From NCBI RefSeq assembly GCF_003430825.1, contig NZ_CP024047.1, positions 3,224,001 to 3,288,000 on the forward strand: a DNA stretch of 64,000 nt, in the 5' to 3' direction. This stretch comes from Natrarchaeobaculum sulfurireducens. GTDB lineage: Archaea > Halobacteriota > Halobacteria > Halobacteriales > Natrialbaceae. Shown one piece after another: positions 5,704-64,000 of the stretch. The notes under the pieces were generated by a model that was not told where the DNA came from, searched no databases, and saw only the letters and a program-made list of their open reading frames with translations. Positions within the stretch are counted from its first letter, which is position 1; every line of letters starts with the position of its first letter. The position numbers were made by a program, and so were the translations under genes.

Positions 5704-6276
5704 ATGCACCTCGAGCCAACCCAGACCGCAGTGGTGGTAGTCGACATGCAAAACGGCTTCTGTCACCCCGACGGCTCGCTGTACGCGCCGGGAAGCGAAG
5801 ACGTAATCGACCCCGTCAGTGAGTTGGTCGAACGAGCCCACGAGGTCGATGCGTCGGTCGTCTACACCCGAGACGTTCACCCGCCCGAGCAGTTCGGCGA
5901 CGCCTACTACTACGACGAGTTCGAGCAGTGGGGCGAACACGTCCTCGAGGGGTCGTGGGAGGCCGAGGTCGTCGAGGGACTCCCCGTCGACGTGGCCGAC
6001 CACGTCGTCGAAAAACACACCTACGACGCCTTCCAGAAGACCGAACTCGAGGGGTGGCTGACCGCTCGCGGCATCCGTGATCTCGTCTTCTGTGGCACGC
6101 TTGCGAACGTCTGCGTGCTCCACTCGGCGGGCAGTGCTGGCCTGCGGGATTTCCGGCCGATCCTCGTCGAAGACTGCATCGGCCACATCGAAGAAGACCA
6201 CCGGGAGTACGCCCTAGAACACGCCGAGTGGCTCTTCGGCGAAGTGACGACGAGCGACGAGCTCGAATTCGTCTGA
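5704..6276 (+). CDS. Isochorismatase-family hydrolase, probable nicotinamidase
   Basis: The 190-residue protein belongs to the isochorismatase/nicotinamidase cysteine-hydrolase superfamily. The catalytic triad is visible: Asp14 in VVDMQNGF, Lys104 in VVEKHTYDAF and Cys137 in GTLANVCVLH. A metal-binding DxH (Asp57, His59) lies in YTRDVHP. Deamidation of nicotinamide to nicotinate is the likely reaction because pncB sits 3.6 kb away, but the superfamily has other amidase activities and I cannot separate them. The start is the ATG at 5704; the 42 bases of open frame before it do not look coding. It is divergent from the Hvo_1808-type gene that starts at 5592. Confidence 0.85.
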   Translation: MHLEPTQTAVVVVDMQNGFCHPDGSLYAPGSEDVIDPVSELVERAHEVDASVVYTRDVHPPEQFGDAYYYDEFEQWGEHVLEGSWEAEVVEGLPVDVADHVVEKHTYDAFQKTELEGWLTARGIRDLVFCGTLANVCVLHSAGSAGLRDFRPILVEDCIGHIEEDHREYALEHAEWLFGEVTTSDELEFV

Positions 6277-6332
6277 CGGCAGTCGGGGATCGGTCAATAT
6301 CTTCAACACGACGGACGCCGGATCGAGAGGCG

Positions 6333-6800
6333 TCAGTCGGCGACGTCCTGGCCGATCGAAATCGGGTCTCTGTCGTCGTCGGGTTCCCGAAGCCGGACGA
6401 CGATCTGCCCACCCGCTACCGTTTCACCGTCTGGACCACCAGGGTAAAGCCCGGCTTCTCTTGCTTCGGTTGCACCACGTTCACACGCCGCTTCGACGTA
6501 GAACGCGCCAGGTTCGATACCGAGATCACCGTTCGTCTTCGACTCTCCTGGGTCGACGGTGAACTCCCAACTACGGCTCCAGTCGGGGTCAGTAGGCGGC
6601 TCCGGCTGGGTCTCGTGCCGGTCGGCTTCGTCGGCGTCATCAGCAACCTTCGCAATGTGGACCGTCCCCGTCACTGTCTCGTCTAGGGAGTTGACGAGCC
6701 GAACCTCGCTCGAGTCGACCGATTCGGAAACGACAGCACACCCGGCCAGAGAGACGCCGAGGGCCGTGCCGACGCTAACGAGAACCTGCCGCCGATCCAT
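6333..6800 (-). CDS. Secreted lipoprotein, uncharacterised
   Basis: The 155-residue protein begins MDRRQVLVSVGTALGVSLAGC, a twin-arginine-like signal peptide ending in a lipobox (LAGC, Cys21). Haloarchaeal lipoproteins of this kind are usually exported folded by the Tat system. The mature part is Asp/Glu-rich and reads like a single beta-sandwich domain (VRLVNSLDETVTGTVHI, EFTVDPGES, GAFYVEAACERG). No catalytic motif is visible and I do not recognise a named family. It is convergent with the nicotinamidase-like gene, 56 bases away. Confidence 0.75.
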   Translation of the reverse strand: MDRRQVLVSVGTALGVSLAGCAVVSESVDSSEVRLVNSLDETVTGTVHIAKVADDADEADRHETQPEPPTDPDWSRSWEFTVDPGESKTNGDLGIEPGAFYVEAACERGATEAREAGLYPGGPDGETVAGGQIVVRLREPDDDRDPISIGQDVAD

Positions 6801-6938
6801 ACGGAAGATAGTTTGTTAGCGAACAAGTGTTTTGTGTAACAATTCCACTGGCATCGACCGACGACGACCAGTCCCGGCCGGACTCGAGCGACGACGGCGG
6901 AGAGGTGGCTTTTTGGTCGTCCTGACGAAGGGAGCGGT

Positions 6939-7061
6939 ATGAACGGGTTTCAGACGGTCGGCCGGCGACACCTCGAGCACGCGACGCTCGAGTCGGTTGG
7001 GGCGACCGGTAACGAGGAGACAGCAGTCGGTCGTGACGACGGTAAAGCGGGTGGTGCGTGA
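6939..7061 (+). CDS. Possible 40-residue protein
   Basis: A short frame of 40 residues begins at an ATG preceded by GGGAGCGGT, which could be a weak ribosome-binding site, and ends two bases before the ATG of the next small gene (7064). The predicted protein (MNGFQTVGRRHLEHATLESV, then a Gly/Asp-rich end) has no membrane segment and no recognised motif. The tight spacing to the next frame suggests translational coupling, which is the main reason to list it. It could also be just a leader. Confidence 0.35.
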   Translation: MNGFQTVGRRHLEHATLESVGATGNEETAVGRDDGKAGGA

Positions 7062-7063
7062 CG

Positions 7064-7231
7064 ATGGAGCGACGGCGACTCCGGCTGTTGTACGTCGTCG
7101 GGATTGCACTCAACGCGATCGCGTTGACGGCCGCGTGGACGGCTGGGGAGCTGCTGTTCGCCGGCACGTTTGCCCTCGTCATGGTCTATCTGGGGCTTCG
7201 GTACTGGATGGTCGCGACGGATCGTACCTGA
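7064..7231 (+). CDS. Small two-helix membrane protein, 55 residues
   Basis: The 55-residue frame starts MERRRLRLLYVVGIALNAIA. It has a positively charged N-terminus followed by a helix (about residues 9-29) and a second helix (31-48). A charged end RYWMVATDRT follows. The positive-inside charge distribution and two clean helices argue for a real small membrane protein. The family is unknown to me. It sits two bases after the 40-residue frame and is convergent with the EamA transporter, whose stop is 13 bases away. Confidence 0.6.
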   Translation: MERRRLRLLYVVGIALNAIALTAAWTAGELLFAGTFALVMVYLGLRYWMVATDRT

Positions 7232-7244
7232 GACGACCCGCCAG

Positions 7245-8156
7245 CTAGCCGCTGGCACCGAGTCGACCGTCGAGGGCGCTGGCGATGGCGCGGCGTTTGA
7301 CCAGCGCGAAGCCCGCCACGATGAGGGCGAAGCCGACGTAGGTGAGCGGCGTGATCGACTCACCGAGGACGAAGACGCCGACGAGCGTCGCGACGACCGG
7401 CACCAGATACTGGATGAGCGCCACCTGAAACGCGCCGTAGGTCGCGAGTACCGTGAAGTAGATGAAAAAGGCGATGGCCGTCGAGAAGACGGCCAGGTAG
7501 ACGACGACGGCGACGGCCTCGAGCGAGACGGCCTCTGCCCCGGGCACCTCGCGGGCGGTCAGGCTGGCACCGTGGAGAACGAGCCCACCGAGGAGCATCG
7601 ACCAGCCGGTCAGCGGAACGGTATCGATCGTGGGACTGGCTCGCTGAACGAGGACGCCCCCGAGTGCGACGCTTGCGACCTGGCCGAGGATCAGGAGGTG
7701 GCCGACGGTGTCACCCGCGAGCAGGTTCGCGGGATCGGGCTGGACGATGAACCCGATGCCGACGAGTCCGACACCGACACCGGCGACACCGGTCGGTGAG
7801 AGTCGCTCACCAAGTAAGAGATACGCCCAGATGGCCGTCACGAGCGGGATCAGTGACGTCAGGATCGCGGCAACGCCGCTCGGGACCGTCTGTTGGCCCA
7901 TGAAAATGAGCCCGTTGCCGGCGACGAGAAAGAGCCCGCCACCAGTGATCCCCAGCAGGTTGCGTCGACTTCTCGGAATCCACTCGTCGGTCCGGATCGC
8001 TGCATACCCCAACAGGACGAGCGCCGCGACGTCGTAGCGAAAGGCGGCGAACAGCAACGGTGGAAGATACTCGAGGCCGATTTCGATCGCTGGAAACGAC
8101 AGTCCCCAGAGCACGGCGAGTGCGAGGAAGAGACCGACGTCGGCGGGACGCTGCAC
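7245..8156 (-). CDS. EamA/DMT-family transporter
   Basis: The 303-residue membrane protein belongs to the drug/metabolite transporter superfamily. It has ten predicted helices in two EamA repeats: ALAVLWGLSFPAIEIG opens the first and GWSMLLGGLVLHGASL lies in the second. EamA proteins export or import small metabolites, and the substrate cannot be told here. A GTG at 8156 was chosen because the first helix begins immediately after it, and TACAAA on the plus strand (TTTGTA on the minus) at 8179-8184 is a TATA-like box at about -25, fitting a leaderless start. The frame remains open to 8360, but the extra 68 residues look non-coding. Confidence 0.85.
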   Translation of the reverse strand: MQRPADVGLFLALAVLWGLSFPAIEIGLEYLPPLLFAAFRYDVAALVLLGYAAIRTDEWIPRSRRNLLGITGGGLFLVAGNGLIFMGQQTVPSGVAAILTSLIPLVTAIWAYLLLGERLSPTGVAGVGVGLVGIGFIVQPDPANLLAGDTVGHLLILGQVASVALGGVLVQRASPTIDTVPLTGWSMLLGGLVLHGASLTAREVPGAEAVSLEAVAVVVYLAVFSTAIAFFIYFTVLATYGAFQVALIQYLVPVVATLVGVFVLGESITPLTYVGFALIVAGFALVKRRAIASALDGRLGASG

Positions 8157-8310
8157 GTCTGAAAGGCGGTCGAACGCGTACAAACCGTTGTCGATTCGAG
8201 AACGTCGGCTGGGCTGACTCGACGGCCGGTATGCCCACCGTCGGGTTCTCGCTAGCCGTACTGTGAACCGTCGAGCCACATATATCGTGGAGTCGTACAG
8301 GTGAGGGAGT

Positions 8311-8340
8311 ATGAAACTCGAGGACGACCGCCGACTATGA
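8311..8340 (+). CDS. Mini reading frame (9 residues) overlapping the next gene
   Basis: ATG at 8311 opens a nine-codon frame (MKLEDDRRL) whose TGA overlaps the ATG of the 48-residue membrane protein as ATGA at 8337-8340. A TATA-like CATATAT lies at about 8279-8285, which would put the transcript start at about 8309-8311, so this would be a leaderless first cistron. It may act as a translational leader for the next gene. It could also be chance. Confidence 0.3.
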   Translation: MKLEDDRRL

Positions 8341-8483
8341 TCGACTCGGTGCCCCTCCACGTCGAGGTGATGATCTACCTCTATTTCGCCCTCGTTGCGT
8401 CGGTCGGCGGTTACCTTCTCGCGCGGCTCTGGCTTGCGTCGCGTCGAACCGACGAAGTCGGCGACGGTATAAACCCGAACTGA
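8337..8483 (+). CDS. Small single-helix membrane protein, 48 residues
   Basis: The protein starts MIDSVPLHVEVMIYLYF and has one strong hydrophobic helix (about residues 10-31). The tail is short and charged (ASRRTDEVGDGINPN). The ATG at 8337 overlaps the stop of the mini frame as ATGA. An in-frame GTG at 8301 would add 12 residues, but the promoter position favours the shorter form. I do not recognise the family. It reads divergently from the EamA gene. Confidence 0.55.
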   Translation: MIDSVPLHVEVMIYLYFALVASVGGYLLARLWLASRRTDEVGDGINPN

Positions 8484-53123: not shown

Positions 53124-56003
53124 ATGAGCGTAGAGCGTAGATCGTCGGCGGTGGGTACGGGCGTACGGACTGGGGTGCTTGCAGCCGGGGTCGCGGCCGT
53201 GGTTGTCGCCGTCGGCTGGCTGGCGGGTCTCGAGGGGCTACTCGCCGGGGGCGCACTGATCGTCGTCGCCGGAACACTACTTGGCTATCGGACGGGGAAC
53301 CGCATCGACGAGACGATCGACCGGCTCCGTACTGAAGCACAGTCGGTTGAGACGGGTGACGATACGTACGAATCGATCGACGATCTCGAGGATGTCGCCG
53401 ACGTTGTCGGGTCGACGCTGCAGGAGAACCACCAGCTTCGTGAGCGCACCCGAGAGCTCGAGAAAACGGTCAACCGACTCGAGGGACAAAACGAGCGGAT
53501 GGAGGCACAAACAGCGGAGCTCGAAGAGGCGATGCAACTGTGTGCGGCGGGTCGGCTCGCCCACCGACTCGAGCCGGACGAAGCGGCACCGTTGTCGGTC
53601 GCCGACGAGTTCAACGCCATGATGGACGAACTCGAGGGGACGATCCGTCATCTCAAGGACTTCGTCATGCTGGTGGTGACCTCGAGTGACGAGCTCATGG
53701 CCGGGGTCGAACAGGTGACGGCCGCAAGTGCAGAGATCAGCGACGACGTCCAGCAGATCGCAGATGGGGCGTCGGTCCAGTCGCAGCGACTAGACGCGGT
53801 CACCGACGAGATGAGCGTTCTTTCGTCGAACATCGAGGAGATCGCGAGCCGGGCTGAACACGTCGCGACGCTTTCAGAAGAGACTGCACAGACTGGCCGG
53901 GCCGGGAAACAGGCCGCAAAAACGGCGATCGACGGGCTCGAAGAGATCGAGGCCGGGTCGACCGAGGCAGTCGAGGCGATCGAACGATTGCGTGCGGACG
54001 TCGACGAGATCGACGAACTGGTAGAGATGATCGCCGAGATCGCTCACCAGACGAACATGCTGGCGTTGAACGCCAACATCGAAGCCTCTCGGGGAACGAG
54101 TGAGGACGGGAGCGGCGAGGGGTTCGCAGTCGTCGCCTCGGAGATCAAATCACTCTCGGGCGAAGTGCAGTCTGCAGCCGAGTCGATCGAAACGCGACTC
54201 GACCGGATCCAGACCCGGACCGAGGAAACGACAGCGACCGTTACCGAGGCCGAGTCGATGATCGCGGCTCACACCGATGCCGTCGATCGCGCGCTGACTG
54301 CACTCGAGAAGATCGCCGAGTACGCAGAGCAGACCAACAACGGCGTCCAGGAGATCCACGCAGCGAGCGACCAGCAGGCCCAGTCGACCCAACAGGTCGT
54401 CGCACTGATCGACGAAACAGCGACGATCGGCGACCGGACGTCGTCGCTCTCGGGGAACGTCGCGGCATCGGCCGAAGAACAGGCGGCCGCGCTCTCGACG
54501 ATCTCGGGGCGCGCAGGCGAACTGTCGGAGAACGCGGCGTGGCTTCGAGACACCCTCGACATGTACAAGGCTCGCCAGGACGTTCCGGGACAGGAACGCC
54601 CGCCAGTCGCACCGACGTCGGTAACCGCCGACAACTCGAGTGCAGCCGAGGCCGAGGAGATCGACGGAACGACAGGAACCGGTTCCGACGAGAGTGCCAC
54701 CGCGGAAACAGCAGACTGGGCGTCCGACCACAGGGAGCAAACCACGTTCGAGTTTAGCGACGACGACGTCGAGGATGTTGGGCTTTCGACGCAGTTTGGA
54801 AGTGGGATCGCCGCCGGCGACGACGGGTTCGAGGTCGGGAAACAGGCGGCGACGCGCGCGGCGGCAAAACTCGAGAGCGACGGGCGCGTCGACTTCGGGC
54901 AGGTGTTCTGTTCGCCGACGTACGACTACGAGGCCGTACTCGAGGGGATTCGCTCGGTCGTCGGTGAGGACGTCGATCTGATCGGCGCGTCGTCGTCCGG
55001 CGAGTTCACCGAGGAGGCGAGTTCCAACGGGGGCGTCACAGTCGCGCTCGTCGCAAGTGACACCATCCGCTTTTTCACCGGGGTCGGAACCGACCTCTCA
55101 GGTGGCGTTGCCGCGGCAGTCAACGAGGCCATCGATTCGCTTCCGGCATCGGTCGAAGGCTACCCACACCGATCTGCAATCGTCCTCCACGATGGCCTCG
55201 CTGGCGTCGGCGATCAGGTCGCGGTCGCGACCCAGCGAAGACTCGGACACGACGTGAGTCTCGTCGGCGGATCGGCCGGAGACGATCTGGCGATGGAGGC
55301 GACACACGTCTTCTGTAATGAGACCGTTGCCGGCGATGCGGTCGTCGTGGGGCTGCTGGCCTCGAAGACCCCGACGACGGTCAGCGTCGACCACGGCCAC
55401 ACACCGATCTCGGAGCCACTGACAGTGACTCAATCGGACGGCGGGCGCGTCCTCGAACTCGACGGCAAGCCAGCGTTCGAGGCCTGGCGTGAGGTCGTCG
55501 AACCGTATCTCACAGAGCGCGGCCGAAACGTCGACTTCGACGCCCTCGAAAACGACAGTCGGGAGTTACTCGACTTGCTAACCGAGTTCGAGTTCGGCAT
55601 CGAGGAAGGTCGCGGCGCAAGCGACGACGGATACAAGATCCGATGGCCAGGGCTGGCCTTGACGACGGCAGGCCACTTCGAGTTCCCGGTTGGCGTCCCC
55701 GATGGAACGAAACTGCGGGTTATGCACAGTCCCAAACCGGACCAGATCGAGTCGGCCCGGAACACTGCTCGTGAAGCCGTGACCAACGCTGGCCGGAGCG
55801 AGATCGCTGGTGGCTTCGTCTACGACTGCGCTTGCCGGTCGATCATCCTCGAGGACTCGTTTGGCGAAGCCGTCGACGCGATGGCCGACGAACTCGAGGT
55901 GCCGTTTACCGGGATCGAGACGTACGGAGAACTCTGTATGGAACGGGGACAACTCAGCGGGTTCCACAACACGACGTCGGTCGTCATGTTACTCCCCGAG
56001 TGA
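53124..56003 (+). CDS. Chemoreceptor with C-terminal FIST sensor domain
   Basis: The 959-residue protein joins a methyl-accepting chemotaxis domain to a FIST sensor. Two membrane helices (about residues 15-35 and 38-55) have almost no external loop. A long coiled coil with a HAMP-like segment (GRLAHRLEPDE) follows. The signalling tip is EIAHQTNMLALNANIEA near residues 303-320. A Ser/Glu/Thr-rich linker covers about 500-550. From about residue 557 (STQFGSGIAAGDDGFEVG, then SPTYDYEAVLEGIRSVVGED) lies FIST_N, then FIST_C (LGHDVSLVGGSAGDDLAME to SGFHNTTSVVMLLPE). Sensing should therefore be cytoplasmic, perhaps of amino acids or small metabolites. ACTATAG at 53094 is the likely promoter. Confidence 0.85.
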   Translation: MSVERRSSAVGTGVRTGVLAAGVAAVVVAVGWLAGLEGLLAGGALIVVAGTLLGYRTGNRIDETIDRLRTEAQSVETGDDTYESIDDLEDVADVVGSTLQENHQLRERTRELEKTVNRLEGQNERMEAQTAELEEAMQLCAAGRLAHRLEPDEAAPLSVADEFNAMMDELEGTIRHLKDFVMLVVTSSDELMAGVEQVTAASAEISDDVQQIADGASVQSQRLDAVTDEMSVLSSNIEEIASRAEHVATLSEETAQTGRAGKQAAKTAIDGLEEIEAGSTEAVEAIERLRADVDEIDELVEMIAEIAHQTNMLALNANIEASRGTSEDGSGEGFAVVASEIKSLSGEVQSAAESIETRLDRIQTRTEETTATVTEAESMIAAHTDAVDRALTALEKIAEYAEQTNNGVQEIHAASDQQAQSTQQVVALIDETATIGDRTSSLSGNVAASAEEQAAALSTISGRAGELSENAAWLRDTLDMYKARQDVPGQERPPVAPTSVTADNSSAAEAEEIDGTTGTGSDESATAETADWASDHREQTTFEFSDDDVEDVGLSTQFGSGIAAGDDGFEVGKQAATRAAAKLESDGRVDFGQVFCSPTYDYEAVLEGIRSVVGEDVDLIGASSSGEFTEEASSNGGVTVALVASDTIRFFTGVGTDLSGGVAAAVNEAIDSLPASVEGYPHRSAIVLHDGLAGVGDQVAVATQRRLGHDVSLVGGSAGDDLAMEATHVFCNETVAGDAVVVGLLASKTPTTVSVDHGHTPISEPLTVTQSDGGRVLELDGKPAFEAWREVVEPYLTERGRNVDFDALENDSRELLDLLTEFEFGIEEGRGASDDGYKIRWPGLALTTAGHFEFPVGVPDGTKLRVMHSPKPDQIESARNTAREAVTNAGRSEIAGGFVYDCACRSIILEDSFGEAVDAMADELEVPFTGIETYGELCMERGQLSGFHNTTSVVMLLPE

Positions 56004-56197: not shown

Positions 56198-56953
56198 TCA
56201 GTCCGCCGCCGGTCCCTCACCGCCGACGTACGACCGCGTCGCGTCGACGAGCACCTGGCGATAGCCGCTCGAGTCCGGATCGTGTGTGAGTTCGCGGAAC
56301 CGACGCTTGAAGCCCTCGAAGTCGATTCCGGGGGCGTCCATCGCGGCGACGCGCGCGAGGTCGTACAGGCGGTGGTCGTCGTCGACGAGGTCGTGACGCT
56401 CGGCGAGTGCCAGCGCGAACGCGGCGTTGACGGCCGTGATCTCGGGGTCGGCACTCGGTGAGAGACGCTTTAAGCCCGGCCGGGAGGGCGTTTCGGGACG
56501 GTCGGCAAGCGCCATCGCGAGGCTCGACTCGAGGTACGCGAGCAGTTTCTCTCCGGGGCCGACCGCGAGGGTGATGTCGTCGGCGTAGATGTCTTTCATG
56601 TGATTTGCGATCTGGTGGCAGTGGGCGAGTTTTCGCCGCTCGACGCGTTTGCCGGCCAGCGCGAGGTAGAGGACTTCCTCGATGGACTGGACGTGCGACG
56701 GGTGTTCCTGCTCGTATCTGGCCATGTGAGAGAACTCGTGAAGAGCGAGTTCGCGAGCCATCGCACTCGAGGCGGCCTGTCTTGAGATATTGAGGACGTG
56801 TCGGTCCTCGTAGTGGCCGGCCCAGGTACGCTCGTCGGGGTCGTCGCGTAACTGGACGTACACCGGCAACGAGAGGTCGTGTTCGGTCTCGAAGAGATCT
56901 CGAGCGCTGAGAAAGGGAGACGTGGGTCCAGGACCCTGTACTCGTATGTCCAT
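56198..56953 (-). CDS. DUF5781-like protein with HExxH motif
   Basis: The 251-residue protein is of the haloarchaeal DUF5781 type (from memory). LALHEFSHMARYEQEHPSH holds His72, Glu73 and His76 (HExxH), with His84 and His87 following, so it may be a zinc-binding peptidase or a relic of one. Long helices follow (IEEVLYLALAGKRVERRKLAH and the AITAVNAAFALALAERHDL region). There is no signal peptide, so it is cytoplasmic. The start ATG at 56953 was preferred to an open extension to 57061, which overlaps the promoter of aef2. The gene is divergent from aef2. Confidence 0.75.
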   Translation of the reverse strand: MDIRVQGPGPTSPFLSARDLFETEHDLSLPVYVQLRDDPDERTWAGHYEDRHVLNISRQAASSAMARELALHEFSHMARYEQEHPSHVQSIEEVLYLALAGKRVERRKLAHCHQIANHMKDIYADDITLAVGPGEKLLAYLESSLAMALADRPETPSRPGLKRLSPSADPEITAVNAAFALALAERHDLVDDDHRLYDLARVAAMDAPGIDFEGFKRRFRELTHDPDSSGYRQVLVDATRSYVGGEGPAAD

Positions 56954-57168
56954 GCGTATAGATGCCAAGGGTTGAGACAGTATGGCTCTTACGCCGGGAG
57001 TCACGAGTTGTGACCCGGTGAGTCCGGAACCAACGGCAGCCACCAGTATCCTGTGTGGCAATTACTCACTCAATAAAGAGATTTCAGGGGTCAAACCCGA
57101 GGAAACGGCGGATCAGCCCGAGGACGAAACACTACCCTTTTGACCCCGCTGGCGGTAACAGGGTGTAT

Positions 57169-62687: not shown

Positions 62688-64000
<1,313 letters not shown>

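Follow-up and report, generated by a model that had tools for sequence, protein, structure and literature searches.

A haloarchaeal chemoreceptor with a FIST domain tethered by the flexible receptor tail

The window analyzed here, a stretch of 64,000 nucleotides from Natrarchaeobaculum sulfurireducens, contained a gene in which a chemoreceptor (MCP) and a FIST domain were fused in one protein, in the order of membrane hairpin, MCP rod, acidic disordered linker and FIST. This architecture is regarded as near certain. FIST is likely the input of the receptor, and we give a probability of roughly 0.55 to the reading that the protein is a membrane-anchored receptor for a cytoplasmic signal, in which FIST is a tethered sensor and docks at the receptor base; the docking mode and the ligand are offered as hypotheses. 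As almost nothing of the protein lies outside the cell and FIST is carried on the tail, the cell probably guides its swimming by an internal cue. An earlier note on this DNA, made from the sequence alone, had suggested taxis to an internal metabolite. An internal stimulus is indeed plausible; a metabolite, however, is no likelier than heme or NO, a thiol-reactive compound or a protein partner. A role in chemotaxis was supported by the presence of archaellins, two CheA and two CheR in the genome.

Architecture of the fusion receptor

The open reading frame (53124..56003; all coordinates are on the plus strand unless noted) starts with ATG and encodes 959 amino acids, the stop codon being included, exactly as the earlier note had it. 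The Pfam search detected MCPsignal (PF00015) at residues 261-433 (E 6e-29, above the gathering cut-off), FIST_N at residues 590-782 (E 4e-40, 138 bits vs the cut-off of 23.2) and FIST_C at residues 808-938 (E 6e-20, 72 bits vs the cut-off of 28.5). The complete FIST_N/FIST_C pair proposed for the C-terminus was thus confirmed by the profiles, and the assignment as an MCP was upheld by the PF00015 match and by the hairpin rod in the structure model. The signalling region aligned with other receptors over 327 residues with about 43-54% identity. An ordinary MCP tail at the C-terminus was ruled out by the FIST matches and the confidently predicted FIST fold. An artefact of assembly or reading frame was also ruled out, because twelve homologous fusions had the same domain order. 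The structure models referred to below, of the full-length protein and of the FIST part alone, are those of monomers.

Hydropathy analysis showed a single hydrophobic block at residues 9-54, which the full-length model, with low confidence in this region, split by a one-residue break into helices of residues 10-34 and 36-76. From hydropathy and the model, transmembrane helix 1 was assigned to 53151..53225 (residues 10-34; low pLDDT) and transmembrane helix 2 to 53229..53291 (about residues 36-56). The turn between the two helices consists of a few residues (AGLEG), and a short turn was kept in the aligned fusions. The two-helix hairpin agreed with the earlier claim that the receptor has practically no external domain. 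MpcT of Halobacterium likewise has two membrane helices and almost no external domain, and this short-loop membrane hairpin was found in the fusion receptor. To call FIST the only candidate sensor was however too strong, as three more receptors of the same genome (L002, L009 and L016) have hairpin loops of roughly 20 residues or fewer without FIST, and MpcT is reported, in a paper cited by PMC4806987, as a transducer of membrane-potential changes.

Residues 127-191 (53502..53696) matched a profile of the second HAMP built from 50 unfused haloarchaeal receptors with 49.4 bits and E 2e-14, as one match of 67 positions running into the coiled coil. The Pfam search of the open reading frame found no HAMP, and no first HAMP was detectable in the fusion receptor. 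By the sequence profile, residues 127-191 would be the counterpart of the second HAMP of haloarchaeal receptors.

In the full-length model, the N-terminal arm of the rod comprised residues 158-323 (53595..54092; MCPsignal at 261-433), the hairpin tip region residues 324-331 (54093..54116; a short insertion also present in the paralogue L097), and the C-terminal arm, which returns to the membrane-proximal base, residues 332-485 (54117..54578). As the two arms are nearly equal in length (166 vs 154 residues), the C-terminal arm ends opposite about residue 170, which places residue 485 at the HAMP end and tethers FIST to the rod's membrane-proximal base. The former placement of FIST, at the far end of the cytoplasmic rod, thus needs correction: with the rod folded as a hairpin, FIST is last in the chain, yet lies at the base and not at the signalling tip. 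The earlier note described the order of sensor and signalling tip as reversed; C-terminal sensors are however already known on MCPs, such as CZB of TlpD, a C-terminal domain able to act on the rod base (PMC12871147). The fusion receptor shares this domain order, with FIST as the putative sensor.

The FIST domain and its unfused relatives

FIST extends over residues 556-959 (54789..56000) and was compact and well folded from residue 556 in the full-length model. When the FIST part was modelled alone from 59 homologues, pLDDT of 95 and pTM of 0.93 were obtained. The structure search gave the FIST domains of FBXO22 as the best matches, with Z of 20 to 21 over 256-274 residues (PDB 8s7d and 8ua3), and the match to 8s7d_D (Z 20.8, rmsd 3.5, 265 aligned residues) identified the FIST fold. 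Chorismatase and cyanuric acid hydrolase came next, with Z of 12 to 13.5; a study of FBXO22 names both of these enzyme folds as well (PMC11185555). Although the PDB sequence search with a single sequence gave nothing, the family profile reached FBXO22, and the resulting alignment placed C902 on C326 and E936 on E362 of FBXO22 (numbering counted along the alignment). In FBXO22, aldehyde compounds attach covalently to C326, and activity is lost with the E362A substitution (PMC13316043).

The conserved residues of FIST were the C-x-C-R motif (C902, C904 and R905; 55827..55838), the invariant E936 (55929..55931), H948 (55965..55967) and the HGH motif (H757 and H759; 55392..55400). Among the homologues, C902 was found in 58/59, R905 in 57/59, E936 in 58/58, H948 in 57/58 and H757 in 56/59. 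The aligned sequences suggest that the C902-E936 site may be a ligand site common to this FIST and FBXO22.

Relatives of the fusion FIST elsewhere were mostly encoded by separate genes, often directly upstream of histidine kinases. At least 35 of the 76 standalone FIST loci had a same-strand histidine-kinase frame at the end of FIST, and the partners, among the proteins scanned, were mostly PAS-type histidine kinases. Borziak and Zhulin reportedly named FIST in 2007, in a paper that may show MCP architectures. The kinase-adjacent arrangement is that described for NosP (PMC12570481, PMC8846402), a heme-bearing FIST that controls its partner histidine kinase in trans (PMC12570481), and the prokaryotic FIST proteins of known function are described as ligand sensors, namely NosP for heme/NO (PMC8846402). 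Histidine kinases adjoining FIST (L116:7140-8378, L126:7177-8388 and L112:7029-8378) had in common an N-terminal stretch of about 75 residues with no Pfam match, also weakly detected in the bacterial locus L133; the stretch is a candidate FIST-docking domain. An MCP gene was located near FIST, unfused, at five loci (L108, L136, L137, L142 and L177), and these are possible pre-fusion states.

All the bacterial FIST-MCP fusions examined had FIST first (L224, L228 and L229 in the gammaproteobacterial sample; L319, L320, L322 and L323 in the Bacillota sample). The MCP-then-FIST order was not found among the long frames inspected in 369 and 398 sampled bacterial genomes, a scope in which rare bacterial cases could be missed. 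A literature search, covering journals other than subscription ones, returned no paper on FIST chemoreceptors.

Distribution of the fusion and the motif in the receptor tail

The window genome had one FIST and 23 MCP matches over the cut-off. FIST was present in 61 of the 391 genomes of the class Halobacteria and in 29 of the 125 genomes of its own family. MCP-FIST fusions occurred in 12 of these 125 genomes, distributed over three genera (two in its own genus, four in Halobiforma and six in Natrinema), with two copies in one Natrinema genome; a partial FIST was also seen in the 55% complete genome G395 of its own genus. In its own genus and in Halobiforma, the fusion gene is flanked by rpsG on one side and the DUF5781/EF-2 genes on the other; in Natrinema it has another location. 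In the tree, five fusion FISTs formed one clade with support of 100/99, nested among haloarchaeal standalone FISTs. The fusions are therefore best read as the result of a single event, inherited or transferred within the family. The membrane hairpin differed between the fusion clades and FIST was strongly conserved.

Several other features were recorded. The DUF5781 protein (window 56198-57061, minus strand; E 8e-132), encoded between the fusion gene and EF-2, contains the sequence HEFSH. At window 62691-64000 (minus strand) and beyond, about 7 kb from the fusion gene, are two receptors in tandem (L099:3192-5813 and 5817-8417) that have external domains. A second, ordinary MCP with an external domain was found in the Halobiforma-genus genome G052 (L073:2112-4667), flanked by nusA and rpsL within the ribosomal gene string of the fusion locus. 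A smaller contig (G000:C2:33659-33781) carries an MCP fragment broken by TGA, probably a pseudogene. In addition to its fusion, Natrinema gelatinilyticum carries a FIST that is broken into two pieces and lies upstream of a histidine kinase (L134:4675-6984).

The linker between the rod and FIST (54579..54788, residues 486-555) is acidic and about 70 residues long, with pLDDT of 26-37 over most of its length and disorder in the full-length model at residues 486-551. It corresponds to the C-terminal tail with which unfused receptors end. In the family, the tails of unfused receptors are acidic and of low complexity, and a motif of [FY]x[FYW] followed by G, D, E, S or N was found in the last 25 residues of 13 of the 19 distinct tails. 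Across 2000 shuffles the motif occurred in 0.31 tails on average and in 3 at most, versus the 13 observed, in a test that treats related receptors as independent and was applied to a motif spotted by eye beforehand. The tail of the paralogue L097, for example, ends in TSFTFGEDSVDE, and FxF[GD]-type motifs were observed in the unfused MCPs L097:700-3597, L242, L253 and L266. The linker of the fusion receptor has a motif of the same kind, FEF (residues 542-544, 54747..54755), just ahead of FIST, and FEF, FTF or FSF was found shortly ahead of FIST in 8 of 9 fusion linkers and in three more. As the motif in the linker is the one that ends most unfused tails, FIST was added to an intact receptor tail.

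In enteric receptors, adaptation enzymes are tethered by the receptor tail (PMC7390727). The xZxxZ pentapeptide (Z = F, W or Y; last five residues) was scored at 0% in Halobacteriales (PMC7390727), so the tail motif may be a separate haloarchaeal docking motif. The fusion receptor also lacks the pentapeptide, with VMLLPE at its C-terminus and FEF in the linker. Judged by the tail sequences, the haloarchaeal FxF[GD]-type motif may be a candidate counterpart of the bacterial CheR/CheB pentapeptide.

Sensing, docking and comparison with known systems

In the reading that we prefer, FIST would keep its pre-fusion role as an auxiliary sensor, the partner now being the receptor that carries it. Because about 70 disordered residues lie between the rod and FIST, FIST cannot push on the rod through a rigid helix and would act by docking. 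It would dock in a ligand-dependent manner at the base of the same receptor or of one next to it, on the HAMP-like region and the adjacent coiled coil, and this would shift the helical bundle and change the CheA activity. The sensing site would include C902-E936, with R905, H948 and H757 as further conserved residues. By analogy with the ancestral FIST, docking on a partner in trans seems the most economical reading. Against a docking sensor, the membrane hairpin itself could sense, and the FIST of FBXO22, reported to have no obvious ligand pocket, binds proteins (PMC11185555).

As for the ligand, FIST might bind heme and sense NO as NosP does, resulting in taxis to NO or heme. NosP (NF041558) was the best NCBIfam match of the fusion, but its 79.6 bits are far under the NosP equivalog cut-off of 450, whereas the true NosP L195 scored 562.7 bits. 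The idea gains from the location of related haloarchaeal FIST genes directly upstream of histidine kinases, through which the heme-bearing NosP works (PMC12570481), and from the conserved FIST_C Cys/His common to the fusion and L195; it loses from the HGH motif, just partly common to NosP-like rows. Moreover, no match to copper nitrite reductase was present in the window genome and its congener G064, and self-made NO from this enzyme is thus not expected there. Taken together, we consider a heme/NO receptor possible but rather unlikely. A link to denitrification was rejected, because copper nitrite reductase gave no match in the window genome, G064 and G052 but did so in other fusion carriers; the presence of the fusion therefore does not track denitrification. 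It is similarly doubtful that FIST is a thiol-reactive sensor, in which C902, activated by E936, would react reversibly with an aldehyde or other electrophile and thereby change the docking of FIST. The exact alignment with the aldehyde-engaged, activity-critical pair of FBXO22 (PMC13316043) and the near-invariance of both residues agree with such chemistry, but their conservation may be structural and the chemistry of FBXO22 came from drug-like compounds. We also know of no natural aldehyde ligand of any FIST, which counts against this possibility.

Alternatively, the membrane hairpin may be the sensor, for example of membrane potential as reported for MpcT in a paper cited by PMC4806987, with FIST as an accessory or second input; the short-loop receptors without FIST in the same genome are in line with this. 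It is nevertheless thought improbable, as the hairpin varies between the fusion clades and a complete, strongly conserved FIST was retained across three genera. FIST may instead be a protein-docking module that recruits a receptor, a kinase or an adaptation enzyme to the array, as suggested by the recruitment of protein substrates by the FIST of FBXO22 without an obvious pocket (PMC11185555) and by its position on the receptor tail, which in enteric receptors is a tether for the adaptation enzymes (PMC7390727). The conserved Cys-Glu site, suggestive of chemistry, and the description of known prokaryotic FIST proteins as ligand sensors (NosP, heme/NO; PMC8846402) make such a module unlikely. 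Still less probable is control of the receptor by sensor-gated adaptation in place of a signal coming down from the membrane: FIST hangs directly behind the conserved FxF[GD]-type motif on a tail where adaptation enzymes possibly dock, and its ligand would mask or expose the motif or move the tail.

This natural chemoreceptor-FIST fusion, whose MCP-FIST order was found in no bacterial genome examined, is a test of how a flexibly tethered sensor can control the chemoreceptor rod. Through the match of C902-E936 to C326-E362, a sensory domain of prokaryotes is connected with the ligandable site in a human ubiquitin ligase, a hint at where FIST domains may have their binding site. The tail motif in turn is a candidate counterpart of the CheR/CheB pentapeptide, reported to be absent from Halobacteriales (PMC7390727).

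Among the known systems, the bacterial FIST-MCP fusions also have FIST and MCP in one protein, but their FIST is N-terminal of MCP, whereas in the membrane-anchored haloarchaeal fusion FIST comes last, at the C-terminus behind the receptor tail. The same FIST_N/FIST_C pair is present in NosP and in other standalone FIST sensors of histidine kinases; NosP is however a separate protein that bears heme, while the fusion FIST, whose heme binding is putative, is part of the MCP chain and has a score far under the cut-off for NosP. The short-loop haloarchaeal receptors and MpcT share two membrane helices with almost nothing outside, but have no FIST, and MpcT is reported to respond to membrane potential. 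TlpD of Helicobacter pylori resembles the fusion in its C-terminal sensor domain at the base of the rod, but is soluble, and its CZB, a different domain, is continuous with the rod helix without a long disordered linker, in contrast to the membrane hairpin and disordered linker of the fusion. The FIST of FBXO22 shares the fold from end to end (Z about 20), and its Cys-Glu pair is aligned, whereas FBXO22 itself differs from the fusion receptor in being a subunit of a eukaryotic ubiquitin ligase that recruits protein substrates.
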